Source: Rhizobium sp. NFR03
Lineage (GTDB): Bacteria > Pseudomonadota > Alphaproteobacteria > Rhizobiales > Rhizobiaceae
Direction of reading: 5' to 3'
Assembly (NCBI RefSeq): GCF_900111275.1
Contig: NZ_FOGR01000002.1
Span: 248,001 to 312,000, forward strand
Length of the DNA stretch: 64,000 nt
Below the pieces are notes generated by a model. The model was not told where the DNA came from. It did no database searches and worked only from the letters and a program-made list of their open reading frames with translations. The stretch's first letter is position 1. Every line of letters begins with the position of its first letter. Positions 3,949-10,120 of the stretch are shown in pieces. The position numbers were made by a program, and so were the translations under genes.

Positions 3949-4680
3949 TCAAAACATAAGTGTTTTTGCATTTTCACGGTCCAGCAGCTCGCGCCAGAGC
4001 GTTGTTTCCTGAAAGATCCAGTGGGGCTTCTCCCTTGACCGATCGTCCGGATGCGCGGTCATCGCGGCGACCAGAAGCAGGGCATCCTCGCGCTTGCGGT
4101 TGCATGCGCGAGATTTCAGTTCCCGCTCCAGCCTGATGCGAAGTTCCTCGTCCGGTATGGAAACATGATCGAGGATGGCGCGCCATGTCCGGTCCTTGAA
4201 ATGCAGGTGCCTGGCAGCCGCCTCGATCCGGCTTCGCAGGTCCGGCGTGAGGCTGGCTGGCAGATCGCTTCGCTGCAATGTGGCGATGATGTTGACCAGA
4301 GGCTCGGTCAGGCTCGCCCATCCCAGTTCGGCCGGCGCGTGGAGCTGCGCTACATCGGCGTCGTCCACAAGCATGCCATCGGCATAGGCTTGCGCAATGG
4401 CGCCAATGGCAATCATACCGAAGGTACGGCACTCCGCTGCCCGCAACGCACCCATGCTGGCCGCACCGAAAACCGTGACGCCTTCCGACAGCGCGTAGAG
4501 GATTTCCTTGTGCCAGACCGGCGCCGTGTATTCGAAGCCGCCATCGACCAGCCCGATGATGCCGGCTCCGTCGCGCACGGCGCGATAGAGATCTCCCTGA
4601 ATGGCCGGCGGACGGATGTTAAGGCCGGGCGCGATCCGTTCTGCGTCCGGCAATGTCGGGCCGATGAACAGAACCTTCAT
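3949..4680 (-). CDS. TfuA-like protein
   Basis: A 243-residue protein of the TfuA family, named after the trifolitoxin locus of Rhizobium. The N-terminus MKVLFIGPTLPDAE, the PPAIQGDLYRA segment, and the central GAASMGALRAAECRTFGM and AYADGMLVDDADVA stretches are typical of the family. TfuA proteins partner YcaO enzymes and are thought to deliver sulfur for backbone thioamide formation. Here the gene begins 10 bases after the YcaO stop, so the two are almost certainly co-translated. The substrate is unknown. Confidence 0.85.
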   Translation of the reverse strand: MKVLFIGPTLPDAERIAPGLNIRPPAIQGDLYRAVRDGAGIIGLVDGGFEYTAPVWHKEILYALSEGVTVFGAASMGALRAAECRTFGMIAIGAIAQAYADGMLVDDADVAQLHAPAELGWASLTEPLVNIIATLQRSDLPASLTPDLRSRIEAAARHLHFKDRTWRAILDHVSIPDEELRIRLERELKSRACNRKREDALLLVAAMTAHPDDRSREKPHWIFQETTLWRELLDRENAKTLMF

Positions 4681-4690
4681 GCATGTCCCT

Positions 4691-5860
4691 TCATAGCGTC
4701 AGAGCCTGTCGAAGTGCACGCGTCCCGTATCGCTGCCGGCGGTTCCCCTCGGGGTTTTCGAGCGCGGGTGCAAGGACCTTGACGACGGAAAAGGGAAGGT
4801 CCGGACGAGAAAGCCGCACCGCGATCATCGGCCCTGCACGCCGCGCGTGGAGGTGGTCGATCAGGGTCCCGGGCGTGCAGGCCGGGCCGTCGGCAAGGCT
4901 TCGCGCGGCGGGCTTCGCCATCATGAACTGTCGCGTGCTTTCCGCCAGCGGCCTGTCGTAGTCGGCCGGAAACACGTCATCCCGCGCGCCGCTGATATAG
5001 GTCAGGCGCGACTGCGCGCTTTCCGTGATGGCCCGAAGCGCTGCCTGCCGGGGAAGGGGATGCGCGCCGGCTCCGAAGGTCACATCCACATGCCGCAATC
5101 GCCCCGAGAGATGCGTTCCACCCGGGCCCAGAAACGCGGAGAAACAGGGAATGCCAAGATCGCTTGTCGCATCGAACAGACGCAGTGTCAGTCCCGCCGC
5201 CGCGATCTGTCGTTCCAGATCATGCAGGATCGGGCAGTCGAAGCCGGAGGGATCGACGCAGGTGCCCTGTCGCGCCGCCTGCGGGCGCAATTGCCAGAGC
5301 GCATGCGCGTCCCGTTCCACCCGCTCCATCAGCCCGTGAAAGATCGCCTCCTCCAGCGTATTACCGGAGGCAAGTCCGTCGGAAGATTGCCAGTACCGGC
5401 TCTCCTGGATCGTCCGGTCGAGGACGACGGCGTGCCGGGGCACGAAGACGGTCTCCCCGCTCGCGATATCCTGTCCCTCGACCCACGCCGCGTGCTCGTC
5501 TGCCAAAAGGAGATCGTGGCCCGATGCGACCAGCGCCGGGAGCGCATGAAAGGCCAGTCCGCGACGCGTCAGGTCCGCAATGCTCGCCTTGAGGACAGGG
5601 ATATCGGGATCGCAGGCGACCGCCCGCTCCAATGCTTCCATGACGGCGGATGTCCGCGCATCGGCGTCCGTCGCACCTTTGCCCTGCGCCACGACGATGG
5701 ATCGCGCATTGGGCGTGTAGGCGCACCAGACGGGAATGCCGATCCGGTCGAGCGACGTGTGCCGCGCGACCCGCGTGATGCCGAATTCGGCGAGAAAAGG
5801 TGCACCGCGGTCGAAGGTCTCGGCCGCGGTGCACTGTCTGTCGAAACCGGTAAGGCACAA
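4691..5860 (-). CDS. YcaO-family cyclodehydratase/thioamidase
   Basis: A 389-residue YcaO-domain protein. YcaO enzymes use ATP to activate peptide backbone amides, giving azolines or, with TfuA, thioamides. Visible family features are the Mg-ATP helix TSAVMEALER (E76, E79) and the second acidic helix HGLMERVERDAHALW (about 175-189). The C-terminus lacks a proline-rich PxPxP tail. No ATG is available: the first usable start is TTG at 5860, five bases after the stop of the small upstream gene, which suggests coupling. The frame stays open further upstream without a start codon, so the exact start is uncertain. Confidence 0.83.
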   Translation of the reverse strand: MCLTGFDRQCTAAETFDRGAPFLAEFGITRVARHTSLDRIGIPVWCAYTPNARSIVVAQGKGATDADARTSAVMEALERAVACDPDIPVLKASIADLTRRGLAFHALPALVASGHDLLLADEHAAWVEGQDIASGETVFVPRHAVVLDRTIQESRYWQSSDGLASGNTLEEAIFHGLMERVERDAHALWQLRPQAARQGTCVDPSGFDCPILHDLERQIAAAGLTLRLFDATSDLGIPCFSAFLGPGGTHLSGRLRHVDVTFGAGAHPLPRQAALRAITESAQSRLTYISGARDDVFPADYDRPLAESTRQFMMAKPAARSLADGPACTPGTLIDHLHARRAGPMIAVRLSRPDLPFSVVKVLAPALENPEGNRRQRYGTRALRQALTL

Positions 5861-5865
5861 TGGCG

Positions 5866-6069
5866 TCAGTCGAAGAGGCCGGAGAAGGCTTTGTCGGCCG
5901 GATCGAGTGCTACGGCGAAGTCCACGCCGCGGATGAATGGCGCACTGGACGAGCGCAGTTCGCCAGCGCGGCCGTCGGTATCCTCAAGCGGCTTCACCGT
6001 GCCCGCCTCGACATCGGCGACATAGAGCTGGCTATCCCCGGGAAAGCCGAAAACGACAGTTTTGGACAT
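5866..6069 (-). CDS. 67-residue protein upstream of YcaO; candidate modification substrate
   Basis: A small protein starting MSKTVVFGFPGDSQLY and ending DKAFSGLFD, with a clear GAAGGAAAT ribosome-binding site before the ATG at 6069. An upstream in-frame ATG at 6102 is less likely. It has no Cys, no signal peptide and no membrane segment. Its stop lies five bases before the YcaO start. A short gene translated immediately before a YcaO/TfuA pair is where a RiPP precursor would be expected, so it may be the peptide substrate. A binding or chaperone role is an alternative. The assignment is positional only. Confidence 0.6.
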   Translation of the reverse strand: MSKTVVFGFPGDSQLYVADVEAGTVKPLEDTDGRAGELRSSSAPFIRGVDFAVALDPADKAFSGLFD

Positions 6070-6169
6070 GCGATTTCCTTCATGGCGAGAATGAAAAGAC
6101 AACCGTTTGCGGCTTCAGGTTGAAGACCGAGAACGCTGTCATGGTAGGGCCGAAAAACGATTTCGTCCG

Positions 6170-8059
6170 TTAATATCCTGCCCGTGAAAGGCCTTCGCGG
6201 TAAAGCTCTTTCTGCCAGTTCTCGCGTATGGGTAGAACGGACAGCCATCGATCAAGGTCGAAATGCGGATTTGCCTCGCGGTCCTTGCGCCGGTAGCGTC
6301 GCGCCATCGCGGTATCTCCGAGCATGGCGAAGGCCGCCGCTCTCAGGCGGTCGGCCGAGGACTGATGGGCCATCCTGCCGATGTAATCGATGGCGTCCTG
6401 ATAATGGCCGACGAAGTAGCTTGCCCCCGCCGCGCTCCAGAAATAGTCGTCCGGGCTCAGCGGATTGAGCTCGATCGCCCGCTGGATTTTGCGCAGTCCT
6501 TCGTCGGGCCGCGAGGCATGAACGAGCGAATCGGCATAGCTGTAGATCGCATCCGCATAATGCGGGCTGAGGGCTTCCGCTCGTGCCAGGGCTTCGAGGC
6601 TTTCGTCGAGATCGCCGAGATAGAGCTTGGCAACGCCGAGTTCCTTGTAGCCGGCCGCGCTCGAAGGGTCCTGCTGAATGGCGAGCCGGGCATGGTCCTC
6701 GGCCTTGTGGAGAAGGCTCTTGTCGCCGCGCGCCGTCAGCACCCATTCCAGCGAATAGGTGCGCGCGAGCCCGATGAAGCTTGGCGCGAAATTCCGCCGA
6801 TACTGAAGCGCCTCGCGAAAACCGCGCCGCGCACCGCGGATCGACGGCAGCGAGAGGTCCTTGGTCTGGCGGGCGCCGGAGAGATAGGCGCGATAGGCAT
6901 CCGGATGATGTTCGTACTCGACCAGCGGATCCTGGTTGCGCTGCAACTCCGCCGCGATGCTATCGGCAATGATCCTGGCAATCACCTTGCGGTGCGAGGA
7001 AAACGGAATGTCGAGCGCGAAGCGCTCCGCCCAGATGACCCTGTCGAGCGGGACGAAGATGACCTGCACCATCAGACCTTCCGCGCAGAGCGTCGTATCC
7101 ACGAGATAGGAGACGGCATGCGTTTCCAGCATGGCGATCTTGTCGTTGCTCTCCTGGATCCGCTTGGCGGTGTGCGGCGCGACGATCGAGATATTGCGCA
7201 GGGTGCAGAGGCTGATGGCGATATCATCGATCAGTGCTTCGACCGTTCCGGTGAGTGTTCTCGATGCGCCGGCCCGAAGGACCGGTGGCAGCAGCGCCAG
7301 TCTCGGCAGAGCCGCTGTCACGGTGAGGACGCGTTGCACGCGCGGCACGGCCTGGGCATAGGCAGCCAGGCGCGTGCCGGGTAGTGCTGTGTTGACGGGC
7401 GCGGCTTCCCGGTTTCCGGTCGGCAGCGAGTCTAGCCGGTCGGTATTCGAGGCCGTTCCATAGTGTGACGATGGAGCGTTAGCCTCGAGAAGCGCCCGCA
7501 CCGGCTCGTCATGCACATTGCGTTCGAGGAGCAGGAATGCAGCCTCCCGCAGCGATACGGTCTCCGGGCGGGCCGAGGCCCCGTCCGGCAAGGTCAGAAT
7601 CCGCTCGCGCAGGCAATGATAATGCATGTCGATCTGCAGATCGACCCAGCGACGCAAGGGTCCGTCTGGCAGCTTGCCGCCGAGAAAGCGTTCCCGGAGC
7701 AATGAAAGCATCGTTTCAACGGATGTGTCGTCTCGCCGGAAGCAGGCAGCGTCTACGATCAGCCGCTGCCCGTCATCGCCCAGCGTGATCGATGTTTCAT
7801 CGATGTCGAGGATCATGCTGTGACAGGCGAATTGCGCCTTGCGAATTCGCGATACCATCTTGCGCAGATTGATGTGCTGCGCCTCCCGGTCGGCCTCCGG
7901 CCAGAGAAGGGCGGAGGCTTCGTCGCGTCGCAGAACGGGACGTTCTCCCAGACGCAGCATGCAGACGAGCAACAGCGCCTTTTGCGGAAAAGCGAGGTCT
8001 TCACCGCTTCGGGTTGTCAGGGCCAGGTTGCCGAAGGTCTGCAGCCGCAACGGGCACAT
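6170..8059 (-). CDS. SARP/BTAD-like transcriptional regulator with TPR repeats
   Basis: A 629-residue regulator. Residues 1-75 read as an OmpR/SARP-type winged helix (LRLQTFGNLAL, then LLWPEADREAQHINLRKMVSRIRK), followed by a degenerate BTAD-like helical region to about 200. A linker and a domain at about 260-375 resemble the TolB/cyclase-associated part of similar proteobacterial regulators, and TPR-like repeats occupy about 420-600 (LGVAKLYLGDLDESLEALARAEALSP is one unit). No receiver domain or kinase motif is seen. The ATG overlaps the stop of the XRE gene as TGATG. It probably controls the YcaO/TfuA genes 100 bases downstream. Confidence 0.7.
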   Translation of the reverse strand: MCPLRLQTFGNLALTTRSGEDLAFPQKALLLVCMLRLGERPVLRRDEASALLWPEADREAQHINLRKMVSRIRKAQFACHSMILDIDETSITLGDDGQRLIVDAACFRRDDTSVETMLSLLRERFLGGKLPDGPLRRWVDLQIDMHYHCLRERILTLPDGASARPETVSLREAAFLLLERNVHDEPVRALLEANAPSSHYGTASNTDRLDSLPTGNREAAPVNTALPGTRLAAYAQAVPRVQRVLTVTAALPRLALLPPVLRAGASRTLTGTVEALIDDIAISLCTLRNISIVAPHTAKRIQESNDKIAMLETHAVSYLVDTTLCAEGLMVQVIFVPLDRVIWAERFALDIPFSSHRKVIARIIADSIAAELQRNQDPLVEYEHHPDAYRAYLSGARQTKDLSLPSIRGARRGFREALQYRRNFAPSFIGLARTYSLEWVLTARGDKSLLHKAEDHARLAIQQDPSSAAGYKELGVAKLYLGDLDESLEALARAEALSPHYADAIYSYADSLVHASRPDEGLRKIQRAIELNPLSPDDYFWSAAGASYFVGHYQDAIDYIGRMAHQSSADRLRAAAFAMLGDTAMARRYRRKDREANPHFDLDRWLSVLPIRENWQKELYREGLSRAGY

Positions 8060-8508
8060 CAGGAGGCGTTGGCGGACGCCTGCGCGGCGGACGCATCCAC
8101 CGGCTGCCGGGCAGCGGCCTCTTCGCCCTGCGCCAGCGAGGTCACCAGGGCCACGACCGTTTTGCGGATGTCAGGGCTCTTGATGGAGGAAAACGCCTTG
8201 TTCAGCGACAGGCCTTCGCGCGTCGACAGGAACGCGTTGACCGCGTCGAAATCGGCAGCCTCGGGACGGGTCTGGTCGCTCGGATTGTCCTGGAAGAAGT
8301 AGCTGATCGGCACGCTCAGAATGTCCGCGGCGGCCTGCAGCCGGCTCGCGCCCATCCGGTTCACACCCTTTTCGTACTTCTGGATCTGCTGGAAGGTGAT
8401 GCCGAGCCGGTCGCCCAGCGCCGTCTGGCTCATGCCCAGAATAAGCCGGCGCGCACGAACACGACCTCCGACGTAAATATCGATCGCATGGGGGGCCTTC
8501 GCGTTCAT
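8059..8508 (-). CDS. XRE-family HTH transcriptional regulator
   Basis: A 149-residue regulator. The Cro/C1-type HTH spans about residues 15-70 (RARRLILGMSQTALGDRLGITFQQIQKYEKGVNRMGASRL), followed by LSVPISYFF, a layout common to rhizobial PraR-like regulators. The C-terminal half is Ala-rich and helical. The ATG at 8508 has an AGGAG site seven bases upstream; a longer frame upstream is rejected because it begins in non-coding-looking DNA. Its stop overlaps the start of the SARP-like gene, so both regulators should be made together. It may be autoregulatory, but no operator was identified. Confidence 0.85.
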   Translation of the reverse strand: MNAKAPHAIDIYVGGRVRARRLILGMSQTALGDRLGITFQQIQKYEKGVNRMGASRLQAAADILSVPISYFFQDNPSDQTRPEAADFDAVNAFLSTREGLSLNKAFSSIKSPDIRKTVVALVTSLAQGEEAAARQPVDASAAQASANAS

Positions 8509-8919
8509 AGTCGCTCCTGCAGAATACCGGCAAATTTCTCGTTTGCGCGAGAATGTATGATTTTTCAAAAAGCGCAATGAATTTCACGCGGGGTTTCAGC
8601 CGCTGGCATCGCACTTCTGTTTAGCAAGCGATAACGTTTTCTGCACCGCTCCGCTACCCTTTTTGCCGAACAAGCAGATCGTTATGTTCAAGGATTGACA
8701 GTGACTTCGGCTGTAAACGTACGAAACCGTGCGAACATGGCGGCGCAGACCGATGATGTTGCTTTGCACTCTGGCTCTATATGGGCCAGGAGCGGACGCC
8801 ACCTGCAAAGATGAAGATTTGGTCAATTTTTCCGGATCAATTCGACCGTTATGCTCCAGCTGCATAGCTGCACTGCAATATACCGACTTTCGGATCATTC
8901 GTTTTCGCGTATGATCATT
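8509..8919. other. gene-free region between XRE regulator and small RNA
   Basis: About 410 bases of lower GC without a convincing gene on either strand; the short frames here lack ribosome-binding sites and family-like sequence. It must hold the promoter of the XRE/SARP/YcaO genes (leftward) and of the small RNA (rightward). A TTGACA hexamer is present at 8695-8700 but no good -10 follows. An inverted repeat GATCAT (8893-8898) / ATGATC (8911-8916) overlaps a possible -10 (TATGAT, 8910-8915) just before the RNA. Confidence 0.4.
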
Positions 8920-9073
8920 CTCATCGAAGCACGCACCTCCTCCCGCGTCCTTCGAGTTTCAGGGCTCCGATCCTCCTCCCCGGACCCCTGTAGGAATAGC
9001 GGCACTCCTCCTCCCAGCCGCTGTTCGGTTCTTTTGGAAAGCCTGCCGCACCTCCTCCCGCGGCAGGCTTTTC
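8920..9073 (+). ncRNA. small RNA with four anti-Shine-Dalgarno hairpins (alpha-r14-like)
   Basis: Four consecutive hairpins each expose CCTCCTCCC in the loop, at 8936-8944, 8972-8980, 9007-9015 and 9051-9059. The stems are CGAAG..ACGC/GCGT..CTTCG (8925-8954), CAGGG..CCG/CGG..CCCTG (8960-8990), AGCGGC/GCCGCT (8998-9022) and GCCTGCCGC/GCGGCAGGC (9041-9068). The last is followed by TTTT and acts as an intrinsic terminator. Loops complementary to ribosome-binding sites are the hallmark of the rhizobial alpha-r14 family (for example NfeR1), which repress many mRNAs by covering the SD. The 5' end is estimated; a TATGAT at 8910-8915 is a possible -10. Confidence 0.85.
8936..9059 (+). repeat. four copies of CCTCCTCCC in hairpin loops
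   Basis: The nine-base motif occurs four times within 124 bases with start-to-start spacings of 36, 35 and 44, each copy enclosed by different, self-complementary stem sequences. The stems vary while the loop is identical, which is a pattern of selection on the single-stranded loop rather than on the DNA sequence as a whole. Confidence 0.85.
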
Positions 9074-9325
9074 AGTTTCTGGAGGAGTTGATCCGAACCG
9101 CCTCTTCGATATCCGGTTTCCCTTACGCCGTTGTCCGCCTGGCAACCAATGGAGGCACGTCGGGCATCGCGCCATGAAGAATGACGAGCCCCGGCAGATG
9201 CGATCCTGACCGCGACGCTCTCACGCCGCTGGATCAAAAACACTCCCACGCAGTTGGATGGCCTTTTCCGGTCTCGTGCCGCCACGCGCTGGTGGTCCCG
9301 TGGACCCGCAGAAGGAGAGAGCATC

Positions 9326-10120
9326 ATGGAAACCTCGAAACGTCCGCTTGCGATCGTCACGGGCGCCTCATCCGGCATCGGTCTGGAGCTTGCCAAGCTT
9401 GCAGCCAGCCGAAACCACGATCTCATCATTGCTGCCGATGACGACGACATCGATGTCGCAGCCGATATCCTTCGTTCGATCGGCGTCGATGTAGACGCCA
9501 TGCAGGTCGATCTCTCCGGCAGGCAGGGGGCGGATGCATTTTGCGACTTCATTGCGGAGCGCGGGCGTCCGGTCGACCTTCTGATGGCCAATGCCGGGCG
9601 CGGCCTCGGCAAGGCATTCCTCGACCAGGATCTCGACCGGGCACTGGATGTGGTGGAAACCAACGTCACCGGCACGCTGGCGCTGATCCACCGGATCGGC
9701 AACGAGATGCGAACGCGCAGGGCGGGGCGCATGCTCATCACCGGGTCCATCGCCGGCTTTATTCCCGGCAGCTACCAGGCCGTCTACAACGGCACCAAGT
9801 CCTTTCTTAACAGCTTCTCCTTCGCTTTGCGGGAAGAGCTGAAAGACAGTGGCGTCACCGTGACCTGCCTCATGCCGGGGCCCACGGAAACGCGGTTCTT
9901 CGAGCGGGCGGACATGCTGGATACGGAGGTCGGGCGAGCTGAAAAGGACGATGCGGCGGATGTCGCGAAAGTCGGCTTCGAGGCGATGTTGAAAGGCGAG
10001 GGCGATGTCGTCGCCGGCTGGAAGAACAAGCTGCAGACGGTTCTGGCCAATGTCACGCCGGCGCCGCTTCTGGCGAAACAGCACGCGAAGATGGCCGAGC
10101 CGACCGGTGCGAAATCCTGA
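9326..10120 (+). CDS. short-chain dehydrogenase/reductase (SDR)
   Basis: A 264-residue classical SDR. The NAD(P)-binding TGASSGIG is at residues 12-19, NAG at 89-91, and the catalytic Ser141, Tyr154 and Lys158 (SIAGF, YNGTK) are all present. The ATG at 9326 has GAAGGAGAG eight bases upstream; the longer upstream frame has no such site. The substrate is unknown, but the YxxTK and PGPTETRFF features resemble uncharacterised ketone reductases of the DltE/YdfG kind. It stands alone downstream of the small RNA. Confidence 0.85.
   Translation: METSKRPLAIVTGASSGIGLELAKLAASRNHDLIIAADDDDIDVAADILRSIGVDVDAMQVDLSGRQGADAFCDFIAERGRPVDLLMANAGRGLGKAFLDQDLDRALDVVETNVTGTLALIHRIGNEMRTRRAGRMLITGSIAGFIPGSYQAVYNGTKSFLNSFSFALREELKDSGVTVTCLMPGPTETRFFERADMLDTEVGRAEKDDAADVAKVGFEAMLKGEGDVVAGWKNKLQTVLANVTPAPLLAKQHAKMAEPTGAKS

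Follow-up and report, generated by a model that had tools for sequence, protein, structure and literature searches.

A conserved, predicted small RNA gene of the four-hairpin alpha-r14 type in another rhizobial genus

We find that the window, the whole 64-kb stretch of DNA analysed here, holds a small RNA (sRNA) gene at about 8921–9076 on the plus strand that is, judged from sequence comparison, genuine and conserved. The sRNA is a further four-hairpin (SmelA099-type) member of the alpha-r14 family, in another genus. The four-hairpin form is already known, having been reported for a related bacterium in 2011. The window sRNA opens no new kind of system but adds a further genus to the range of a known type of rhizobial regulator. 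Very probably, it is a trans-acting RNA that would mask Shine-Dalgarno sites, to which its loops are complementary.

Results

The motif CCTCCTCCC occurs in four exact copies on the plus strand, at 8936, 8972, 9007 and 9051, and a search of both strands of the 64-kb window gave no further copy. Folded unconstrained, the segment 8922–9077 forms four separate hairpins at −70.1 kcal/mol, and every base of all four loop motifs has an unpaired probability of 0.99–1.0. The motif search and the fold together confirm the claim of a sequence-only reading that four different stems present an identical loop. The interval it gave, 8920–9073, is correct within a few bases.

All four hairpins lie on the plus strand. 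Hairpin 1 (8924–8955, loop motif 8936–8944) has 10 pairs plus one C-C mismatch and is placed 5′ of the Rfam match described below. Hairpin 2 (8960–8990, loop motif 8972–8980) and hairpin 3 (8994–9026, loop motif 9007–9015) are backed by the fold, the Rfam match and an arm-swap test, and hairpin 4 (9034–9075, loop motif 9051–9059), the presumed intrinsic terminator, by the fold and the Rfam match. The transcript is predicted at about 156 nt, its ends 8921 and 9076 being carried over by hand from SmelA099 via the distances to the first and last loops.

Compared with 200 shuffled versions of itself, the segment 8900–9090 has a folding energy 5.1 sd under their mean, and 0 of the 200 fold as well. 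In its best fold, loop 1 pairs with a downstream GGAGGAG and hairpin 1 is gone. The fold of 8922–9100 loses hairpin 2 instead, and extension of the 3′ flank to 9085 retains all four hairpins. The four-hairpin picture therefore needs an RNA end soon after hairpin 4, because the folds with more flank lose a hairpin.

Such an end could be provided by hairpin 4, in which a GC-rich stem is followed by T-rich sequence, so that it likely acts as a terminator. A simple scan found no terminator there; it allows loops of at most 8 bases, fewer than this hairpin has. The earlier proposal that the last hairpin doubles as a terminator accordingly stands as likely by its stem and tail, though not by the scan.

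The Rfam model RF02344 (ar14) matches 8954–9075 on the plus strand over its whole length (model 1–123 of 123) with 97.5 bits and E 1.1e-16, against a gathering cut-off of 58.8 bits. The assignment to the alpha-r14/NfeR1 kind made by the sequence-only reading is thereby upheld. The whole-length match spans hairpins 2–4 only, leaving hairpin 1 on its 5′ side. By the match and the fold, hairpins 2–4 carry CCUCCUCCC unpaired in their loops, as the three hairpins of the alpha-r14 family do. By the arm-swap test, their stems vary with the pairing kept, although hairpin 4 varies little. The family is indeed depicted with three hairpins in the family descriptions of PMC10746234 and PMC7143759, as the sequence-only reading had stated.

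The fourth hairpin, proposed as a novelty, has a precedent in print. In section 2.7 of PMC3927594, SmelA099 (also smrA6 or RFMSmelA099) is presented as a four-hairpin CCUCCUCCC sRNA on pSymA of S. meliloti, and PMC2873474 reports it from S. meliloti cDNA sequencing as a 160-nt sRNA on the minus strand of pSymA at 1328175–1328334. We checked the pSymA DNA and found four loops inside this interval on the minus strand with a spacing of 37, 36 and 46 (positions by hand). The window sRNA is alike in its four hairpins with CCUCCUCCC loops, by motif search, fold and comparison with the SmelA099 DNA, and its spacing is 36, 35 and 44.

The two RNAs have hairpin 1 (TCGAAG...CTTCGA) in common as well as a near-identical last hairpin, but stems 2 and 3 are of other sequence. 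Their neighbourhoods also differ, as no XRE, SARP, YcaO, TfuA, short-chain dehydrogenase (SDR) or exonuclease III (exoIII) homologue was found in the 12.5 kb surrounding SmelA099 (E 1e-6).

We compared the pairing of each hairpin's own arms with that of arms swapped between loci. This arm-swap test was used instead of base-pair counting on an alignment because changes in stem length break the columns. Folding of 39 four-loop loci and removal of eight duplicates left 31 distinct sequences; the four-loop runs L138/L157, L141 and L160 were left out, as were L152/L153, whose fourth loop is inexact.

On average, the own arms pair better than the swapped ones in all four hairpins, in figures uncorrected for relatedness among the loci. 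The own and swapped energies are −13.0 and −10.5 kcal/mol for hairpin 1 (24 distinct arm pairs), −14.0 and −6.9 for hairpin 2 (24 pairs), −15.0 and −9.4 for hairpin 3 (21 pairs) and −23.2 and −20.3 for hairpin 4 (11 pairs). Swaps equal or surpass the own arms in 130/552, 39/552, 46/420 and 46/110 cases, respectively. Paired changes in hairpin 1 are readable in L020, L151 and L159.

Hence, as far as sequence comparison tells, the stems differ among relatives while the pairing is kept, and this holds also for the additional hairpin on the 5′ side, which the Rfam match does not include. The stem conservation on which the sequence-only reading had staked its claim is borne out. The run of hairpins exceeds chance because the shuffles fold worse and the stems re-pair across the 31 distinct relatives. 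A chance run of C-rich sequence was rejected by the shuffle folds, the motif count in the window and the arm-swap test.

The ar14 model matches above the cut-off in all seven genus genomes searched, own included, with 38 matches listed and the sequence examined for 31 of them. At E 0.001 the model finds nothing in 14 control genomes; under a permissive E-value, 9 of 14 control genomes match, 0 of them above the cut-off. In the family, three or more motifs in a row occur in at least 145 of 199 genomes, own included, and in 43 of the 61 genomes of a smaller draw. Motif runs appear in 21 of 150 genomes of the order, five of these 21 being of the same family. Among the matches listed, the reversed-pattern control gave none in the family (199 and 61) and order (150) draws.

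Runs of at least four exact loops were counted in the 61-genome draw only, from overlapping matches. They occur in seven genomes including the own one (G000, G015, G020, G035, G038, G053 and G054), each from its own genus. This spread, and the four such copies in the own genome, also speak against a novel four-hairpin form. Similar DNA turned up in 485 records of a plasmid search, and in 96 of these the match extends over 80% or more of the query. Judged by their first names, 484 of the 485 belong to Rhizobium and related genera. Six records were examined, out of 40 listed among the 485.

Upstream of the sRNA, an LsrB-type (LysR family) box, TGCT-N6-GCAT, lies at 8852–8865 on the plus strand, 71 nt before the assumed start and with one mismatch to the published TGCA-N6-GCAT. 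Of 35 distinct upstream regions, 32 have a box with up to two mismatches at −73 to −70 relative to the assumed start, the three without it being L001, L012 and L148. In shuffled upstream regions, such matches arise anywhere in the sequence at a rate of 0.47 per 125 nt. A putative −10 hexamer, TATGAT at 8910–8915 on the plus strand, is kept in 6/6 genus orthologs, all of which also have the box. No good −35 element was seen upstream of the sRNA, and a consensus scan found no consensus sigma-70 promoter.

For the NfeR1 promoter of S. meliloti, PMC10746234 places the LsrB motif TGCA-N6-GCAT in the −72 to −60 stretch and reports that trimming or point changes of the motif prevent LsrB binding. By this account, the putative LTTR-type box of the window sRNA stands at the same distance as that of NfeR1.

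In the own 5.4-Mb genome, six ar14 copies score above the cut-off. Four of them have four perfect loops each, a fifth has three and the sixth two, which makes 21 perfect loops in total. Five weaker matches at 15–18 bits are excluded from this count. The sixth copy, L006 (G000:C31:19356-19482), departs from the motif by one base in each of the other two of its four loops and is possibly decaying.

Six of the seven genus genomes, own included, have the copy that adjoins the XRE gene (L003, L020, L021, L025, L027 and L030), with four perfect loops in each. Longer stretches confirm the gene order of this locus for L020, L025 and L027. The seventh genome (G005) has a four-loop copy, L012, and the 12 kb surrounding it showed no XRE or SARP homologue.

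With six copies in the own genome, the window sRNA could be a conserved but weakly expressed extra, the other copies doing nearly all the work and its dosage counting only under rare conditions. According to PMC7143759, only one of the six NfeR1 copies of S. meliloti was reliably detected by northern blot under the conditions tested. A silent copy, however, should decay, and L006 looks more like that. The window copy is kept at the same locus with its four perfect loops in six of seven genomes, its hairpin 1 arms are re-paired in L020, and its box and −10 are in all six orthologs. We therefore regard a mere spare copy as unlikely.

TfuA, YcaO, SARP/TPR-like and XRE genes stand in a row on the minus strand at 3949–8508 and are kept in near relatives. 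Pfam recognises TfuA, YcaO, HTH_3, short-chain dehydrogenase and Exo_endo_phos among the neighbours. The 'SARP' protein has TPR-type Pfam matches only, at or below most cut-offs, and its name is taken from annotated plasmid relatives. By its gene families, the row resembles a locus of the modified-peptide (RiPP or thioamide) type.

The exonuclease III-like neighbour has its best named match in Ferranicluibacter rubi CRRU44, with 91% identity, from which the genus name Ferranicluibacter is taken; a literature search gave no small RNA paper under this name. The sRNA and exonuclease genes are separated by a short-chain dehydrogenase gene (9326–10120). Its homologue is found between these two in none of seven relatives' stretches (L037–L040 and L187–L189), and the gene is either an insertion in the window genome or a loss elsewhere.

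The sequence-only reading had asked whether the XRE/SARP/YcaO locus is a target of the sRNA or shares its control. If the sRNA regulated the divergent XRE/SARP/YcaO/TfuA genes locally, this would suit the XRE side adjoining the sRNA in six of seven genus genomes and the whole order TfuA-YcaO-SARP-XRE, sRNA, exoIII in 4/4 named near relatives (L037–L040, which may be conspecific with some of the genus genomes). It would also suit a SARP-XRE pair about 1.1 kb from a four-loop copy in Rhizobium beringeri (L167). Away from this locus type, however, the own genome has five other ar14 loci (L171–L175), and the stretches examined around them show no SARP or XRE homologue. Among 18 further ar14 stretches, a SARP homologue is found at one, that of R. 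beringeri, and an XRE homologue alone at a stretch of R. etli (L170). These 18 (L165–L170, L176–L186 and L190) were chosen by hand, mostly with 4–6 kb per side, and five of them have fewer than four exact loops (L168–L170, L184 and L185).

Local pairing points the same way. The predicted pairing of the loops with the XRE start region, −6.8 kcal/mol, ranks 36th of 57 genes and is weaker than their mean of −8.1, the gene calls being crude (by codon-position GC) and the starts partly guessed. At guessed starts, SARP (7960) and YcaO (5641) are weaker still at −2.6 and −3.3, and TfuA is only slightly stronger than the mean at −8.7; the SDR gene has −9.4. Thus, the link raised by the earlier question is not supported, and local regulation appears most improbable. 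As judged by synteny, the XRE/SARP/YcaO neighbourhood follows the genus rather than the sRNA, and treating the sRNA as part of that locus finds support neither in synteny beyond the genus nor in local pairing.

The window sRNA might instead be the processed 3′ part of a longer mRNA, in the manner of the Rhodobacter CcsR RNAs and their DUF1127 precursor. A DUF1127 gene is just upstream in five of seven related hairpin runs examined, and two plasmid four-loop copies come about 0.2 kb after one. At the window sRNA, however, no same-strand DUF1127 gene was found upstream. Inspection by eye of the ORFs listed for the interval from the XRE gene to the sRNA showed no DUF1127-like frame, the upstream XRE gene points the other way, and the sRNA has a conserved box and −10 upstream. 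Six DUF1127 genes were found in the own genome, the nearest about 6.4 kb from any ar14 copy. A DUF1127 origin is thus unsupported here, and processing from such an mRNA is hardly to be expected.

Discussion

The window sRNA can be set beside two better known groups. NfeR1 (Smr14C2 or SmelC397), the founding alpha-r14 member from S. meliloti, is alike in its loop motif and variable stems but is described with three hairpins in 123 nt, versus four in about 156 nt. The alpha-r14 family is characterised by transcripts that are independent of Hfq and induced by stress, behind a sigma-70 promoter with the conserved LsrB motif. In the reported reporter assays, NfeR1 silenced ntrB, as judged by the wild type versus a triple loop mutant (PMC10746234 for part), and two ABC-transporter mRNAs, and its three loops were redundant.

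The 'cuckoo' RNAs CcsR1–4 and RS0680a of Rhodobacter sphaeroides are alike in their tandem stem loops with an anti-Shine-Dalgarno motif (PMC3927594). RS0680a has two stem loops according to the same source, versus four here. CcsR1–4 are described as being processed out of a DUF1127 (ccaF1) precursor whose promoter is of the RpoHI/RpoHII type, whereas no such gene was seen beside the window sRNA.

For the preferred trans-acting RNA, the following course may be envisaged. LsrB or a similar LysR regulator would activate the sRNA, perhaps, like NfeR1, in response to nitrogen or salt stress. The four loops being equivalent, any one of them on the RNA of about 156 nt would pair with GGAGG-like Shine-Dalgarno sites on many mRNAs and thereby block ribosome entry. 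Four loops would act in the same way as three, while offering more binding sites per molecule and still serving if processing removed one or two. The variable hairpin number offers a natural experiment for asking whether repression becomes stronger or broader with more loops.

Just past the terminator, GGAGGAG at 9081–9087 on the plus strand is complementary to the loops and is present in 6/6 genus orthologs. Of 35 four-loop loci, with related copies counted, 13 have GGAGG in the 50 nt that follow loop 4, versus 1.4 expected from the same 35 loci. Taken as the ribosome site of a short reading frame, GGAGGAG was rejected by eye, as no fitting start codon is common to the six orthologs. Speculatively, it might be an off switch, the read-through RNA closing a loop and melting a hairpin so that only the terminated RNA would have four free loops; the ar14 paralogues would then form a cell-wide Shine-Dalgarno buffer with its loop number tuned in evolution. 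We give this whole scheme little credence.

Some loop arrays are much longer. Four-loop runs at L157 and L160 follow DUF1127 genes, and so do three arrays with more loops than the descriptions of such RNAs in the cited literature give; no title on long anti-Shine-Dalgarno loop arrays was among the literature matches listed. L163 (G161:C1:3404800-3406600) has five exact three-loop units and L161 (G197:C54:17400-18700) has 11 anti-Shine-Dalgarno loops in a row. L162 (G181:C1:877900-879700) has 21 perfect ones in a row, in seven units of three.
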